NCBI GenBank assembly: GCA_003023785.1
Contig: PXRS01000043.1
Location: forward strand, 1-40,163
Reading direction: 5' to 3'
DNA length: 40,163 bases
DNA from: Halobacteriales archaeon QS_5_68_33
GTDB taxonomy: Archaea > Halobacteriota > Halobacteria > Halobacteriales > Haloarculaceae
Numbering within the stretch: position 1 is the stretch's first letter; every line of letters starts with the position of its first letter. Positions 4,170-39,534 of the stretch are shown one piece after another. The translations under genes and the position numbers were made by a program. The notes below the pieces were generated by a model, which searched no databases, was not told the origin of the DNA, and worked only from the letters and a program-made list of their open reading frames with translations.

Positions 4170-4277
4170 TACTGTCGGAGACAAGTAGTGCCACCGTTCG
4201 ATGGCTGTCTCGGGGTCGTTTCGACGGTTCGTTCCCGACCGGCGGCACGCTCGTTCACGAACTCGTGTCCGACAGTA
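4170..4277 (-). mobile_element. family I inverted-repeat element (copy 1, 108 bp)
   Basis: The termini are TACTGTCGGAGACAAGT (left) and ACTCGTGTCCGACAGTA (right), an imperfect 17-bp inverted repeat. Flanking triplets are TCG at 4167 and TCA at 4278, a 3-bp target duplication with one later change. The right-hand TCA is the stop codon (TGA) of the PhyH-type gene on the minus strand. The interior is homologous to the copy at 31758-31864 in the same orientation and, reverse-complemented, to those at 14320 and 36348. It has no ORF. Confidence 0.85.
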
Positions 4278-5120
4278 TCAGTCTTCGCTCGACGCGATGG
4301 GCTCCCCACCCTCGACCAGCGGGACGCCCGCCATCGCCGGCCAGTACTCGAAGAGGGTCTCCGCGTCGTCGCGCCTGATCTCCTGTTGGTCCTCGCGGGC
4401 GAAGCGAGTGATCGCCGCCATTCGGACGTCCTCGCCGACGTTGATCCCGGCGTTGTGCGTGAGCTTCGAGTGCCAGAGGACGACGGTACCCGCCGGCCCA
4501 GATATCTCGTAGGGGTCGTACTGGTTCCACAGGAGGTCGTCGTAGTCCCACTCGCCCGCCGCCTCGCCGACGGCCGGGACCTGCGAGTTGTTCGGTTTCC
4601 CGCCCACCGTTTCGAGCGCGTGGTCTTCGAAGTACGCCGCGGCGACCCGGTGGGACCCGGGCCAGACGGTAAACCCGCCCGAGTACGGGCGGACGTCGTT
4701 CACGTAGACGGCCGCGCCGAGGGTGAAGGTGAACACCTCGGGGTTCTCGTCGAAGTTCGCGTAGCCGTCGAGGTGGCCGGTCACCGACTGCGGGCCGAGG
4801 AACTCCTCGCCCGCGTCCTCGTCGGGGAAGTTGAGCGCGACCTGCATCCCCTCGCCCGGCGGCGCGAGGACGCCCTCGCCGACGAGCGCCTCGGCAGCCG
4901 GGAAGACGGCCTCGGCGATCCCGGTGAATGGCTCCTGATTGACGCCGTCAGCGTCCACGTCGTAGCCGGCGCCGATGACCTCCTCTGGGCCGTCGAGGTC
5001 GACGTCGGTTCCCGCGTGGACCGCCTCGCGGGCCTCGGCGAGCAGGTCCTCGGGGAGGAGGTCATCGCGGGTCAGGAAGCCGTTGCGGGCGAACTCGCGG
5101 CGTTCGCGGTCGGTGAACAT
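4278..5120 (-). CDS. phytanoyl-CoA dioxygenase (PhyH) family protein
   Basis: This 280-residue Fe(II)/2-oxoglutarate-dependent dioxygenase carries the full facial triad: His116 and Asp118 in TGHLDGY and distal His222 in LTHNAG. Arg233 ([10 protein letters not shown]) is the likely 2-oxoglutarate anchor. TVWPGSHR is the typical loop of the family. The substrate is unknown; members hydroxylate lipids, ectoine-type solutes and others. The C-terminus ends SSED and its TGA stop is also the target duplication of the adjacent small element, which left the protein intact. It is divergent from dcd. Confidence 0.85.
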
Positions 5121-8858: not shown

Positions 8859-8921
8859 TACGGTCGGTTTGTTTGCCGCCCCGGGGCGGCGAAATTCTCG
8901 ACAGACTCACAGCCGGCAGTA
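8859..8921. mobile_element. family II inverted-repeat element (copy 1, 63 bp)
   Basis: The right end rc is TACTGCCGGCTGTGAGTC; the left end is TACGGTCGGTTTG. The core is the palindrome CGCCGCCCCGGGGCGGCG. It is flanked by TCA on both sides (8856-8858 and 8922-8924), a clean 3-bp duplication. The right half matches the copy at 29982-30059, while the left end looks like family III termini, so this may be a shortened or hybrid copy. It has no ORF. Confidence 0.82.
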
Positions 8922-14319: not shown

Positions 14320-14427
14320 TACTGTCGGACACAAGTACGTGAACGTATTCGTCGACGTTCGGGGACATGCATCTCGAAGACCCCGAAACAGTCACCGGAG
14401 CGGTGGCATCACTTGTGTCCGATAGTA
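14320..14427 (+). mobile_element. family I inverted-repeat element (copy 2, 108 bp)
   Basis: Termini are TACTGTCGGACACAAGT and ACTTGTGTCCGATAGTA, one mismatch over 17 bp. It is flanked by TGA at 14317-14319 and TGA at 14428-14430. It differs from the copy at 36348-36455 at about seven positions, and both are exactly 108 bp. The left TGA lies one base beyond the TGA stop of the P450 gene. It has no coding capacity. Confidence 0.9.
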
Positions 14428-15439: not shown

Positions 15440-15518
15440 TACGGTCGGTTGTCAGTCGTTTCCGGGATTCACCCGCCACCCGCCCGGCGAATCACCGGCA
15501 CACAGTTAACCGACCGTA
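15440..15518. mobile_element. family III inverted-repeat element (copy 1, 79 bp)
   Basis: Termini are TACGGTCGGTTGTCAG and (rc of right end) TACGGTCGGTTAACTG. It is flanked by TCA at 15437-15439 and TCA at 15519-15521. The right-hand TCA is the TGA stop codon of the ABC permease on the minus strand. The centre carries GGGATTCACCCGCC / GGCGAATCACCGG, homologous to the split copy at 31696-31879. It has no ORF. Confidence 0.88.
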
Positions 15519-16750
15519 TCACTCGTACCTGAGCGCTTCGATGGGGTCGACGCGGGCGGCCCGCCAGGCCGGGTACAGGCCCGCGACGGCGCCGACGGCG
15601 ATGCCGACGACGACGGCGACGACGAACCACCGGGGCGCCAGGGTGAGAGGGATCTCGGCGTAGGCGGTGGCCGCCCATCCCCCGAGGACGCCGACCGGGA
15701 CGCCCAGCGCCGCGCCGACGAGTCCCAGGAGGACCGCCTCGGTCAGGAACAGGCCCATCACCTCGCGGTTGCGCGCGCCGATGGCCTTCATGATCCCGAT
15801 CTCGCGGGTGCGTTCGGTGACGCTGACGAGCATGATGTTGGCGATGCCGACCGCGCCGACCACCAGGGCGATGACGGCGATGCCCGTGACGAAGCGGGTG
15901 AGGCGGGCGACGATCTCCTCGACCTCCTCTGCGAGGTCGCCGCTGGTCCGGGCGAGCAACCGGGAGCCGTCGGGGGCGAGTTCGGCCGCGTCGGTCCCGG
16001 GGAAAGTGCGCTCGACCCGGTCGCGGACGGTTTCGGTCTCGGCGGGGTCGGCGACGACGGTCACCTGCGGATAGACGCGCTGGTTCTCGCCGATCGTGGG
16101 GCTCTCGACGACCGTGTCGTAGAGCGGGTCGGTCGGGACGAACACCCGCGGTTCCGAGCCGAAGGCCTCGAAGGGCAACTGCCCCGCCGACCCGTTTATC
16201 AGGCCGACGACGGTGAGGTTGCGCGTCCGGCCGCCGGCCAGCGTGAGCGTCACGGTGTCGCCGACGGTCGCGTTCGTCTCGAACGTGCGCGCCGCTCTTC
16301 TGTTGAGCACCGCTTCGTCCGCCCTCATCTCGAAGGACTCGCCGGCGGCGAAGGAGGCCGACTCGAAGGCCGCGGGCGTCGTCGCGGTGGCTCGCGTGCG
16401 CGCGACGGTGTCGTTCGCGTGACTGATGGCGGTCACCGACAGGACCCCGCGCGGGACGACCCGCTGGACGCCCGCCAGGCGCTCGAACGTCTCGAGGTCC
16501 GTCTCGGTGAAGACGGGCTGGCCGGCGCCGCCGAAACCGTCGTCGTCCTCGGCGGCGACGAGGTAGACGTTGTTCGCGCTGGTATCGCTGATCTGGCCGA
16601 CGACGCTCGCCTGGAGGCTCGCGCCGAACGTGACGAACGTGATCACCGCCGCGATGCCGATCAGGATGCCGAGCGCCGTGAGCCCCGACCGGAGCTTGTG
16701 GGCGCGGATGGCGCGGGCGCTCAGCCGGAGCGTCTCGCCGTAGTCCATGG

Positions 16751-16754
<4 letters not shown>
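15519..16754 (-). CDS. ABC transporter permease, MacB/FtsX family
   Basis: This 411-residue protein has one N-terminal membrane helix (RSGLTALGILIGIAAVITFV). A large extracytoplasmic domain spans about residues 45-270, and a C-terminal FtsX block holds three helices (IAVIALVVGAVGIANIMLVS, FLTEAVLLGLVGAALGVPVG and the last at about 370-395). The conserved SVTERTREIGIMKAIGA and DPIEALRYE motifs are present. It pairs with the ATPase gene, overlapping it by 4 bp. MacB-type pairs export peptides or lipoproteins or couple ATPase cycles to mechanotransmission; the cargo here is unknown. Its stop codon is the target site of a family III element. Confidence 0.92.
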
Positions 16755-21520: not shown

Positions 21521-21600
21521 TACGGATTATTGTAGCGATTTACCGGTACACGCCGACGCCGGGGTCGGCGCTATCCGAAAATAATCTACAATAATCCGTA
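21521..21600. mobile_element. family IV inverted-repeat element (80 bp)
   Basis: A perfect 15-bp terminal inverted repeat, TACGGATTATTGTAG / CTACAATAATCCGTA, encloses a GC-rich centre with GCCGACGCCGGGGTCGGC (a palindromic core). TGA occurs on both sides (21518-21520 and 21601-21603). The left TGA is the stop of the winged-helix gene. The AT-rich arms differ from the other families, but the end pattern and target are the same. Confidence 0.88.
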
Positions 21601-29981: not shown

Positions 29982-30059
29982 TACTGCCGGCTGTAACCTC
30001 GTGAAGAGATCCGCCGCCCCGGGGTGGCGACATTCTTTTCGGACTTACAGCCGGCAGTA
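29982..30059. mobile_element. family II inverted-repeat element (copy 2, 78 bp)
   Basis: A perfect 15-bp terminal inverted repeat TACTGCCGGCTGTAA / TTACAGCCGGCAGTA surrounds a centre with CCGCCGCCCCGGGGTGGCG. It is flanked by TGA at 29979-29981 and TGA at 30060-30062. It ends about 22 bp upstream of the hmgA TATA-like box. Confidence 0.9.
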
Positions 30060-31539: not shown

Positions 31540-31686
31540 ATGAGCGAGTCCACCGACAGCGGCCCGTCGACGCGGGCCCCGAACCCGACCGTACTGCGCA
31601 CCACCCGGCTGTTGCGGCTGGCGAAACTCGCGGCGACGACGCTCGCCGCGCTCGTCACCATCGCAGCGGCGCTGGGGTGGCTCTGA
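31540..31686 (+). CDS. small single-helix membrane protein (48 residues)
   Basis: The frame reads MSESTDSGPSTRAPNP, then a basic stretch and one helix LAATTLAALVTIAAALGWL ending at the stop. The layout of a polar N-terminus and a single C-terminal helix is common among haloarchaeal small proteins. Its TGA stop lies 7 bp before the TGA target of a family III element. Confidence 0.5.
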   Translation: MSESTDSGPSTRAPNPTVLRTTRLLRLAKLAATTLAALVTIAAALGWL

Positions 31687-31695
31687 CGGCCCTGA

Positions 31696-31879
31696 TACGG
31701 CCGACTGTAGCTGTGTCCCGGTGATTCGCCGGGCGGGCGAATCCCGGAAATGACTGATACTGTCGGACACAAGTAATACCACGTTCGATGTCTGTTTCGG
31801 GGCCTTTTCGACATTTCGTCCCTGACAGGCGGAACGCTTGTTCACGAGCTTGTGTCCGACAGTATGACAACCGACCGTC
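31696..31879 (+). mobile_element. family III element (copy 2) split by a family I element
   Basis: TACGGCCGACTGTAGC at the left and GACAACCGACCGTC at the right belong to one family III element, with GGTGATTCGCCGGGCGGGCG in the centre as in the reverse complement of 15440-15518. It is flanked by TGA at 31693-31695 and 31880-31882. The right arm is interrupted after GAC by the family I element at 31758-31864. Confidence 0.88.
31758..31864 (+). mobile_element. family I inverted-repeat element (copy 3, 107 bp), nested
   Basis: Ends are TACTGTCGGACACAAGT / GCTTGTGTCCGACAGTA. Flanking TGA triplets at 31755-31757 and 31865-31867 collapse to a single TGA in the uninterrupted family III sequence (GACTGACAACCG). 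The interior matches the copy at 4170-4277, for instance CGTTCGATG and GCTTGTTCACGAG-like words. Confidence 0.92.
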
Positions 31880-31955
31880 TGACGGCACCGACCGCGACCC
31901 ACGCCCGCCCCCGACGGCGACAACCGTTTTGTCTCCCCTCCCCTCTCTCCCGGTA

Positions 31956-36347: not shown

Positions 36348-36455
36348 TACTGTCGGACACGAGTACGTGAACGTGCTCGTCGACGTTCTGGGACATGCAT
36401 CTCGAAGACCCCGAAACAGCCACCGGAGCAGTGGCATCACTTGTGTCCGACAGTA
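36348..36455 (+). mobile_element. family I inverted-repeat element (copy 4, 108 bp)
   Basis: Ends are TACTGTCGGACACGAGT / ACTTGTGTCCGACAGTA, flanked by TCA at 36345-36347 and TCA at 36456-36458. The right TCA is the TGA stop codon of dnaJ (minus strand). It differs from the copy at 14320-14427 at about seven of 108 positions. Confidence 0.92.
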
Positions 36456-37622
36456 TCACAAGGAGTCCTTTATTTTCTCGAAGAATCCCTGCGAGACCTC
36501 GACTTCCTCGCCGCCGGCCTCGGCGAACTGTTCGAGGGCCTCGCGCTGTTCCTCGTTGAGGCCGTCGGGCGTGACGACCCGCACCTGGACGTAGAGATCG
36601 CCCTGCCCGCGCCGGCGCAGGCGGGGCATCCCCTTGGCCTGGAGGCGGAACGTCTCGCCGCTCTGGGTGCCCGACGGGATGTCGAGTTCGACGGCGCCGT
36701 CGAGGGTTTCGATCTCGACGGTGTCGCCGAAGACCGCCTGCGGGAAGGAGATGGGCTCCTGGCGGTGGAGGTCGGCCCCGTCGCGGTCGAAGTCCGGGTG
36801 ATCGGCGACGGACACCTCAATGAGGAGGTCTCCCTTGGGGCCGCCGTTCTCGCCGGGCGCACCCTCGCCGTCCATCCGGAGGGTCTGGCCGTCCTCGATG
36901 CCCGGCGGGACCTCGACCGAGAGGGTGGTCTCCTCGCGGACGACGCCGTCGCCCCGACAGGTCGAGCAGGTCTCCTCGTAGAGGGTGCCCTCGCCCTCGC
37001 AGCGCCGGCAGGTGCGGGTCTGCTGGACGCGCCCCATCGGCGTCTGCTGGACCTGCGTGGTCTGGCCGCGCCCGTCACACTGGGGACAGCGTCGCGAGTC
37101 GGCCCCCGGCGGGTGCCCCGCGCCGTTACACTCCCCGCAGACGTCGGGGCGAGTGACGCTCAGCTGTTTCTCGACGCCGTGGTGGGCGTCCTCGAGGTCG
37201 ATGGAGAGCGTCGCACGGAGGTCCTGGCCCTGGCGGGGGCGGTCGCCCCGGCCGCGGCTCCCGCCGCCGAAGAACGTCTCGAAGATGTCGCCCATGTCGC
37301 CGAACGGGCCCTGCCCGCCACCGCCGAAGGGGTCGCCGCCCATCCCGCCGGCACCGCGGGCGCCGGCACCGCCGTTCTCGGTGGCCCCGTGTTTCTCGGC
37401 CTCGACGTAGCGGTCGTGGCCCAGCCGGTCGTAGAGCTGGCGCTGTTCCTCGTCGGTGAGGACCTCCTTGGCCTTCTTGGCCCGCTTGAACTTCTCCTCG
37501 GCGTCGGGGTCGTCGCTCACGTCCGGGTGGTACTTGCGGGCCCTCTCGCGGTAGGCCTCCTCGATCTCCTTCTCGCTGGCGTCTCGCCCGACCCCCAGCA
37601 CCGAATAGAAGTCCTCGCTCAT
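36456..37622 (-). CDS. dnaJ: chaperone DnaJ (Hsp40, type I)
   Basis: This 388-residue co-chaperone stimulates the ATPase of DnaK and delivers unfolded proteins. Its J-domain (about 1-66) has HPD at 32-34. A Gly/Phe region follows (GGMGGDPFGGGGQGPFGDMG). Four CxxCxGxG zinc repeats (CGECNGAG, CPQCDGRG, CRRCEGEG, CSTCRGDG) and the C-terminal substrate domain (FPQAVFGDTVEIETLDG) are complete. No dnaK or grpE lies in the window. A TATA-like TTTTATT precedes the start by about 30-40 bp. Its stop is recreated by the target duplication of the adjacent element. Confidence 0.96.
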   Translation of the reverse strand: MSEDFYSVLGVGRDASEKEIEEAYRERARKYHPDVSDDPDAEEKFKRAKKAKEVLTDEEQRQLYDRLGHDRYVEAEKHGATENGGAGARGAGGMGGDPFGGGGQGPFGDMGDIFETFFGGGSRGRGDRPRQGQDLRATLSIDLEDAHHGVEKQLSVTRPDVCGECNGAGHPPGADSRRCPQCDGRGQTTQVQQTPMGRVQQTRTCRRCEGEGTLYEETCSTCRGDGVVREETTLSVEVPPGIEDGQTLRMDGEGAPGENGGPKGDLLIEVSVADHPDFDRDGADLHRQEPISFPQAVFGDTVEIETLDGAVELDIPSGTQSGETFRLQAKGMPRLRRRGQGDLYVQVRVVTPDGLNEEQREALEQFAEAGGEEVEVSQGFFEKIKDSL

Positions 37623-37761
37623 CGCTTGTCCCGGTGTAGCGGATTGAACTACTTGAATAAAACGGGTCGGACGCGGGACCGCGCCCGGCGGTTCGTATCG
37701 CCGCGCGGACAAAAACGGATCGCGGAGAACGCATTAGTGGCAGGCGGACCCACACCGAGAC

Positions 37762-39519
37762 ATGGCAACGGACGCCACCGATACCGACCTGACCGAAGTC
37801 GCCGACCTGGACGACCTCCGCGAGGAGGGACGGGCCGTCACGATGGCCGGCGGTCGTCCCGTCGCCCTCTTTCACCACGAGGGCGAGGTGTACGCCGTCG
37901 ACAACCGCTGTCCGCACATGGGGTTTCCCCTCTCGAAGGGCAGCGTCGAGGACGGCCTGCTGACCTGCGACTGGCACCACGCGCGGTTCGAACTCTCCCG
38001 GGGGGACACGCTGGACATCTGGGCCGACGACGTCCGGACGTTCCCCACCGAAGTGCGGGACGGCATCGTCTACGTCGACCCCGACCCCGACCCCGAAATC
38101 CCGCCCGAGACCCACTGGCGCAACAGACTGGCGGACGGCCTCGCGGAGAACCTCTCGCTGGTCGCCGCGAAGGCCATCGTCCACCTCGACCACTACGGCG
38201 AGGGCTTTTCGACGCCGCTGGAGACCGCGGTCGACTTCGGCACGCAGTACCGCGCCGACGGCTGGGGTCGCGGCATGACGACGCTGGGCGCGATGGCCAA
38301 TCTCCACGACGACGTCGCCCACGACGAGAAACTGCGGGCGATGTTCGTCGGCGTCACGGAAGTCGCCGACAACTGTTCGGGCGAACCGCCGCGCTTCGAG
38401 CAGTACGCGCTGGACAACGACGACCTCTCGAAGTCGCGGCTGAAGTCGTGGTTCCGCGACACCTGCGACGTGCGCGACAGCACGGGCGCCGAGCGCTGTC
38501 TCCGGACGGCGGCGAACGTCCTCCCGCGCGAGGACCTCGTCGAGATCACGGTCGCCGCTGCCACCGACCACGTTTACATGAACAACAGCCACACGGTCGA
38601 TTTCCTCAACAAGGCCGTCGAGACGCTGGACCACGTCGGCTGGGAGAAGCGCGAGGCCGTCCTCGCCACCGTCGTCGACGCCATCGCCGAGGCCAACCGC
38701 GCCGAGGAGACCAGCACCTGGACCCGGCCCATCGACGTCGCGCAGATGTGTTTCGACGCCGCCGAGGACCTCCCCGACATGGTCGCGGCCGGCGCCGGCG
38801 ACGAGTGGGACCGCCCCGAGGACTTCGTCGAGACGCTCCTCTCGGACGACCCGGGCGAGATAGACGCGGCGCTCCGGGACGCCGTCGCCGCCGGCGCGAC
38901 GACGGAGCAACTGGCCCACGCCGTGGCGGTCGCCGCGCTCCGGCGGGTCGCCCACTTCGGCACCGGCAACGAGTTCAACGACTGGAACACGGTCCATCAC
39001 ACGTTCTCCTTTGCCAACGCCGTCGACAACCTCGCGCGGCGCACGGACGCCGATGACGTCTACGGGGCCGTCTGGCAGGGCGCGATGTCCGTCTATCTCG
39101 ATCGATTCCTCAACCAGCCACGGGCGACCATCCCCGACCCCGGTTCGGGCGGCGACGCCGACCCGGCCGAGTTGCGGGCGCGCCTGCTCGAGACCTTCGA
39201 CGAGCAGGGCGGGGTCGACGAGGCCGCCCGTCTCGTGAGCCATCACTTCGACGCCGGCGGCGACCCGGACGCCCTCGAGCAGACGATGGGCGAGGGTCTC
39301 CTCCGGGAGGACGCGGGCTTCCACACGCTCCAGAACGTCGAGGCGGGCTTCCGGCAGTTTGAACTCGCGGAGAGCGAGCGCGAGCGACGGCTGGCCCTGA
39401 TAGCCCCCGCACGGTACATGGCCGCGCACTTCCCGACCCGACGCGAGGACGAGCAGACGTTCACCATCGCCGAGCGACTGTTTCAGGGCGAGAACATCCA
39501 CGAAGGGAGCGCGGACTGA
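37762..39519 (+). CDS. Rieske ferredoxin domain fused to a large helical domain
   Basis: This 585-residue protein has an N-terminal Rieske domain (about 10-95) whose 2Fe-2S ligands are Cys50/His52 in RCPHMGFPLSKG and Cys69/His72 in LTCDWHHARF. The remaining 480 residues are mostly helical with many conserved-looking His/Asp/Asn: IVHLDHYG, MANLHDDVAH, TDHVYMNNSHTVDFLNKAV, FGTGNEFNDWNTVHH, RLVSHHFDAGG. I do not recognise this domain with confidence; it is not a ring-hydroxylating catalytic domain of the usual kind. It may be a novel oxidoreductase receiving electrons from its own Rieske cluster. Its TGA stop abuts a family III end. Confidence 0.8.
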   Translation: MATDATDTDLTEVADLDDLREEGRAVTMAGGRPVALFHHEGEVYAVDNRCPHMGFPLSKGSVEDGLLTCDWHHARFELSRGDTLDIWADDVRTFPTEVRDGIVYVDPDPDPEIPPETHWRNRLADGLAENLSLVAAKAIVHLDHYGEGFSTPLETAVDFGTQYRADGWGRGMTTLGAMANLHDDVAHDEKLRAMFVGVTEVADNCSGEPPRFEQYALDNDDLSKSRLKSWFRDTCDVRDSTGAERCLRTAANVLPREDLVEITVAAATDHVYMNNSHTVDFLNKAVETLDHVGWEKREAVLATVVDAIAEANRAEETSTWTRPIDVAQMCFDAAEDLPDMVAAGAGDEWDRPEDFVETLLSDDPGEIDAALRDAVAAGATTEQLAHAVAVAALRRVAHFGTGNEFNDWNTVHHTFSFANAVDNLARRTDADDVYGAVWQGAMSVYLDRFLNQPRATIPDPGSGGDADPAELRARLLETFDEQGGVDEAARLVSHHFDAGGDPDALEQTMGEGLLREDAGFHTLQNVEAGFRQFELAESERERRLALIAPARYMAAHFPTRREDEQTFTIAERLFQGENIHEGSAD

Positions 39520-39534
39520 TACGGTCGGTTGTAC
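39520..39534 (+). mobile_element. solo left end of family III element
   Basis: TACGGTCGGTTGTAC starts directly after the TGA stop of the Rieske gene. No matching right end was found; the DNA beyond reads as a minus-strand coding relic, so the element or the junction has been rearranged. Confidence 0.6.

Follow-up and report, generated by a model that had tools for sequence, protein, structure and literature searches.

Nested insertion of two short MITE-like elements with TNA target duplications in a haloarchaeal genome

In a 40,163-nucleotide stretch referred to here as the window (contig PXRS01000043.1 of Halobacteriales archaeon QS_5_68_33; number 43 among the 84 contigs of a haloarchaeal genome that is 71% complete), a short repeat of family I interrupts a member of a second repeat family, family III. 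We interpret this feature as a nested insertion of two non-autonomous elements resembling miniature inverted-repeat transposable elements (MITEs), family I having entered an older family III copy, and we put the probability of this interpretation at roughly 0.9. Both elements and both target site duplications can be read directly at the locus, as follows.

31693-31695, plus strand: TGA, left target site duplication of the outer family III element (read from the sequence)
31696-31757, minus strand: first part of the family III element, TACGGCCGACTGTAG...GACTGA (aligned to the reverse complement of 15440-15518 and to L044)
31755-31757, plus strand: TGA, left copy of the family I target duplication, the last 3 bases of the family III part (intact family III copies have a single TCA/TGA there)
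31758-31864, plus strand: family I insertion of 107 bp; its inverted ends read TACTGTCGGACACAAG / CTTGTGTCCGACAGTA
31865-31867, plus strand: TGA, right copy of the family I target duplication (from the sequence)
31868-31879, minus strand: last 12 bp of family III, CAACCGACCGTC (from the alignment)
31880-31882, plus strand: TGA, right target site duplication of the outer family III element (from the sequence)

Structure of the nest

A preliminary description of this DNA had stated that the family I element splits a family III element, and the boundaries that it gave proved exact to the base. Deletion of 31758-31867 (family I and one TGA) closes the outer element and restores GACTGACAACCGACCG. 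The first part of this element (31696-31757) lies in the opposite orientation to the copy at 15440-15518. The alignment of the two, which had been proposed as a check, gave 66 identical bases between the restored 74-bp element and the 79-bp reverse-complemented copy, with a gapped score of 49.5 against a maximum of 11.5 among 300 shuffles; the two halves thus align as a single family III element and do not come from different ones. A second intact family III copy of the same genome, L044, is 92% identical to the restored element over 73 bp. The right tip of the outer element in the window carries one substitution, GTC in place of GTA.

The triplet at the insertion point (TGA or TCA) is single in intact family III copies and double in the interrupted copy of the window. 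These intact paralogues serve as the empty site for the locus; in the nearest relative at the locus itself (L012, genome G007) the alignment ends at 31676, before family III.

The inner element belongs to a family with at least 40 scored copies in the window's genome, the four nearest of which are 84-91% identical to it. Its tip, TACTGTCGGACA, occurs 112 times in this genome and a control pattern does not occur at all, which argues that the nest is not a product of chance. Family I tips were also counted 182 times in genome G027 and family II/III tips 147 times in the complete genome G003, again with controls of 0. Family I elements are 107-109 bp long, family II elements mostly 77-79 bp and family III elements 74-79 bp. 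Their terminal inverted repeats of 12-16 bp are nearly perfect, and all elements are shorter than 500 bp and lack a transposase gene. The near-constancy of length across genera (77-79 bp, and 107-109 bp for family I; L316-L335, L296-L315 and the window) suggests a constraint on length beyond the ends. Halobacteriales archaeon QH_10_67_22 carries an additional family (L205:982-1090), which ends in TACGGTCGTTCACACG / ACGACCGTA and is bounded by TCA at either end.

A single nest such as this shows insertion with duplication; it says neither which enzyme was responsible nor whether the elements are active today.

Target site duplications

Duplications were counted in copies gathered from the window's genome and its relatives. 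Where both flanks read TGA or TCA, the left and right triplets agreed in 72 of 74 family I copies, in 13/13 family II copies and in 30/34 family III copies. A wider set of 201 elements, defined solely by TAC...GTA ends with TNA on both sides, had identical TNA copies in 180 cases, whereas the frequencies of the middle base predict 39%. The duplicated triplets in this set were TCA (88), TGA (71), TAA (13) and TTA (8). The class rule is therefore a 3-bp TNA duplication, of which TGA is just one form. The earlier claim of a 3-bp TGA duplication accordingly stands in its length, and for this nest in its sequence as well, and is replaced by TNA as a rule for the class.

TGA and TCA dominate on both sides of the elements, with T and A almost fixed, as would also be expected if the triplets were not duplications and represented a fixed TSA within a longer inverted repeat or a target consensus. 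With a fixed or inverted TSA, however, the middle base would differ in about half or all of the copies. The agreement in family I, together with the presence of one TNA in intact family III copies and two in interrupted ones, refutes this explanation, whose remaining chance is negligible.

Recurrent nesting at one position of family III

Insertion of family I at the same place in family III was found at five loci or more: the window, three further loci of its genome (L006, L070 and L071) and L098 in genome G041, each with a duplication; when closed, the outer elements of these five nests match intact family III at 85-92%. A pattern composed of the family III tip, NA and TACTG gave 25 matches in four genera of the taxonomic family and none for the control, and 11 of the matches are complete nests with an inner duplication and both outer tips. 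Bases 13-15 from the family III tip have received family I, family II and variants of these. In G003, a family II element with a TAA duplication lies in a family III copy that becomes identical to an intact copy of that genome when closed, and a third inner family (ends TACTGGTGGC) occupies the same family III site at another locus. Insertions directly at the outer duplication of an adjoining element were also noted (L010 and L225). The order stated in the preliminary description, with family III in place first and family I arriving later, is supported at this nest and at many other loci.

Genome G041 is assigned to another family, yet at L098 (G041:C16) its sequence and that of the window's genome are about 98% identical, and the two have a family I insertion site in common (L009/L099). 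Both findings suggest that contigs were mis-binned in one or the other metagenome assembly.

The presence of family I or II in family III at an identical position in multiple loci raises the question of whether the composite of III and I moves as one unit, so that a single old nesting was copied and the window merely inherited it. One pair of G003 loci (L343/L346) has inner parts 88% and outer parts 95% similar. Among the clean composites, however, no pair is highly similar in both parts. The inner family I element of the window is 71-78% identical to other nested ones, whereas its nearest relatives are solitary copies elsewhere (90-91%). Since the nests contain different inner families in both relative orientations and lie between unrelated flanks, most of them are separate events, and copying of one ancestral composite is improbable.

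A position matrix built from non-nested insertions has a C-T-S-A-G core with weak symmetric flanks. Positions 13-15 of family III (GGTTGT-CA-GTCG) obtain the best score among the TNA sites of this element and fall within the top 1.2% of the TNA sites of the window, with about 8 times the mean weight. Target preference therefore suffices to explain the hot spot, and a direct part for a bound family III tip may not be needed.

Insertions at stop codons

Element boundaries coincide exactly with the TGA of long open reading frames (ORFs) at six positions of the window: 4278, 8922, 15519 and 36456 on the minus strand, and 32349 and 39517 on the plus strand. The same arrangement occurs on plasmids (L142, L143, L146 and L295). 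According to RefSeq annotation, coding sequences end with the duplicated TGA in Haloarcula CBA1115, H. hispanica pHH400, Halomicrobium mukohataei pHmuk01 and, twice, Halomicrobium LC1Hm. On pHH400, the TGA stop codon of a gene for an M48 protease carries a family II element followed by a second TGA, and in H. marismortui and H. sinaiiensis the same stop has a single TGA and no family II element. The gene stays intact because the duplication restores the stop codon.

With approximate gene calls, 75 of 170 copies of families I-III touch a stop, compared with 10% of stop plus intergenic TSA sites. Four less selected sets gave 33-36 of 94 copies (35-38%) at a TGA or TAA stop, against about 15-17 (15-18%) expected after weighting by the target matrix.

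Such an excess, together with the very uniform lengths (mostly 77-79 or 107-109 bp) and the near-palindromic form of all copies, would also suit repeats that benefit the host, for instance as transcription ends behind stops; selection or gene conversion would then account for their spread, and their likeness to transposons would be superficial. We consider this unlikely. Insertion is needed to explain the duplications, the nests and the unrelated flanks; more than half of the copies lie away from stops; the gene calls behind the counts are approximate; and the enrichment itself can stem from selection against harmful insertions. The excess may reflect targeting of stops as well as survival of harmless insertions. 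It is conceivable, if rather doubtful, that a transposase of a family not yet described has evolved a palindromic target with the C-T-S-A-G core as a safe-landing strategy, by which copies would land on TGA stops and beside earlier tips and the stop would be regenerated.

Other element copies in the window

Besides the nest, the window contains the following copies.

4170-4277, plus strand: family I copy whose right TCA provides the stop codon for the minus-strand ORF 4278-5120
8859-8921, plus strand: 63-bp hybrid with a III-type left tip and a II-type right tip, TCA on both sides; its right TCA coincides with the stop of a minus-strand frame (8922)
14320-14427, minus strand: family I copy, TGA on both sides
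15440-15518, plus strand: uninterrupted family III element of 79 bp between two TCA triplets; the minus-strand ORF 15519-16754 has its stop codon in the right-hand one (15519-15521)
21521-21600, plus strand: further relative with TACGGATTATTGTAG ends, TGA on both sides
29982-30059, plus strand: family II copy with TACTGCCGGCTGTAA ends, TGA on both sides
36348-36455, minus strand: family I copy between two TCA triplets, the right-hand one serving as stop codon for the minus-strand ORF 36456-37712
39517-39532, plus strand: family III-type tip, starting exactly at the TGA stop of ORF 37762-39519

Right ends in GTA followed by TGA create ATGA (at 30059 and 21600), so insertion at ATGA could also spare a start codon. 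ATG-initiated frames begin exactly at these two positions; the gene caller gives no support for them as start sites. The window further contains two 51-bp direct repeats that are 92% alike (863-969) and two 300-bp repeats that are 79% alike (1020-1904), both unrelated to the elements studied.

Proposed mechanism and search for a transposase

The nest very probably formed in two steps. A family III element was in place first, with its own TGA duplication on the flanks, and family I then entered it at the TGA/TCA that occupies positions 13-15 from a III tip. The enzyme would be a cut-and-paste transposase of the DDE type supplied in trans. It would cut the TNA target, preferably within the C-T-S-A-G core, with a 3-base stagger, and gap filling would double the TNA. 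Where the insertion falls on a stop codon, TGA is regenerated and the gene left unharmed, so that such copies would tend to survive. We infer the enzyme class and its stagger from the fixed length of the duplication, the fixed trinucleotide and the inverted ends, and the action in trans from the fact that no copy has space for a gene.

Several observations weigh against the interpretation as nested non-autonomous elements. A perfect 3-bp duplication is absent in about one quarter of family I copies and more than one third of family III copies; these imperfect duplications presumably arose by mutation or recombination. About 1.5 Mb of loci yielded no autonomous element with these ends, and the DDE_Tnp_1 loci of six genomes (incomplete or only sampled) yielded no partner with matching ends either. 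The genomes covered include no pair of strains polymorphic for the family I insertion of the nest, and the right flank of the orthologous empty site in Haloarcula is poorly conserved.

Other searches for a transposase gave the following results. Of the Pfam families for IS5-type groups that make such duplications, PF13359 had no match and PF13586 one sub-threshold match among 59 genomes of the taxonomic family, and the ends of PF01609 loci differ from those of families I-III. Tip pairs lying 0.3-4 kb apart, considered as possible autonomous elements, proved to be either two short copies side by side or a case involving ISH8. The latter is a transposase between family II tips at L125 (G003), which belongs to an ISH8-like IS4 element inside a family II copy (L125:1008-2498), apparently with a CTTTACGAAC-type duplication. 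The ISH3-like transposase at L116 in the window's genome was likewise rejected as a partner, as its element has other ends. This transposon begins a few bases past a TGATACGGT tip, behind the stop codon of a gene (L116:1135-1150), as if it had inserted into the remnant of a family III-type element. A 98% allele of L098 on contig C24 of the window's genome (G000:C24:46395-47634) could at first be taken for a longer element following a family I tip; the additional DNA is part of a gene that does not encode a transposase, and the allele is therefore a rearranged one. In viral contigs the long family I tip was absent and the family II/III tips had single 15-16-mer matches, near chance level. A scan against Rfam returned tRNA only.

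Short, palindromic, intergenic and multicopy repeats without an internal gene also include repetitive extragenic palindromes and bacterial interspersed mosaic elements (REP/BIME), which are moved in single-stranded form by a REP-associated tyrosine transposase (RAYT) of the HUH type. Insertion of the HUH/IS200-IS605 type takes place without target duplication, whereas a 3-bp duplication is seen here, and such an origin is accordingly extremely improbable.

Comparison with known systems

In the IS5 family, the IS1031 and ISL2 groups produce 3-bp duplications, which for IS1031 have the form TNA. The elements described here agree with these groups in the length of the duplication and in its TNA form, and differ from them in their TAC...GTA ends; the likeness is a resemblance of the duplication only.

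With MITEs the elements share small size, absence of coding capacity, terminal inverted repeats, target site duplications of fixed length, numerous dispersed copies and a frequent location inside other mobile elements. By the definition used in PMC3119063, MITEs have ends in common with a known transposon; for the present families no partner transposon of this kind was found among the loci searched. Mobile elements of haloarchaea are often targeted by other mobile elements (PMC3119063), and nested transposition itself is an ordinary process, of which the window provides a clean example.

The closest phenomenon described so far is that of the SMR-A elements of Haloquadratum walsbyi (HqIRS42, HqIRS43 and HqIRS55). 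These are about 110 bp long, with terminal inverted repeats, no gene and no known transposase; they occur in many copies and strongly prefer to enter other mobile elements at one particular palindromic site close to the end (PMC3119063). Compared by description only, our elements are similar in size, inverted ends, lack of genes, copy number and a fixed insertion place within another element. In contrast to SMR-A, for which there is no duplication, they duplicate TNA, and they enter a relative from within the group, so that the host element differs too.

Within the part of the literature that was searched, we found no TNA-duplicating haloarchaeal MITE and no description of insertion at stop codons. 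The group, with its TNA rule, its hot spot shared across genera and its landing on stop codons, has apparently not been described before. Small repeats are numerous in haloarchaeal genomes, and the way in which they move has been called enigmatic (PMC3119063). The present group offers a clear rule for the duplication, paralogous empty sites as well as an orthologous one, a nesting hot spot common to several genera and a gene-sparing landing site. Together these features specify the activity to be expected of the missing transposase, which can be sought and tested in cultivable Haloarcula.
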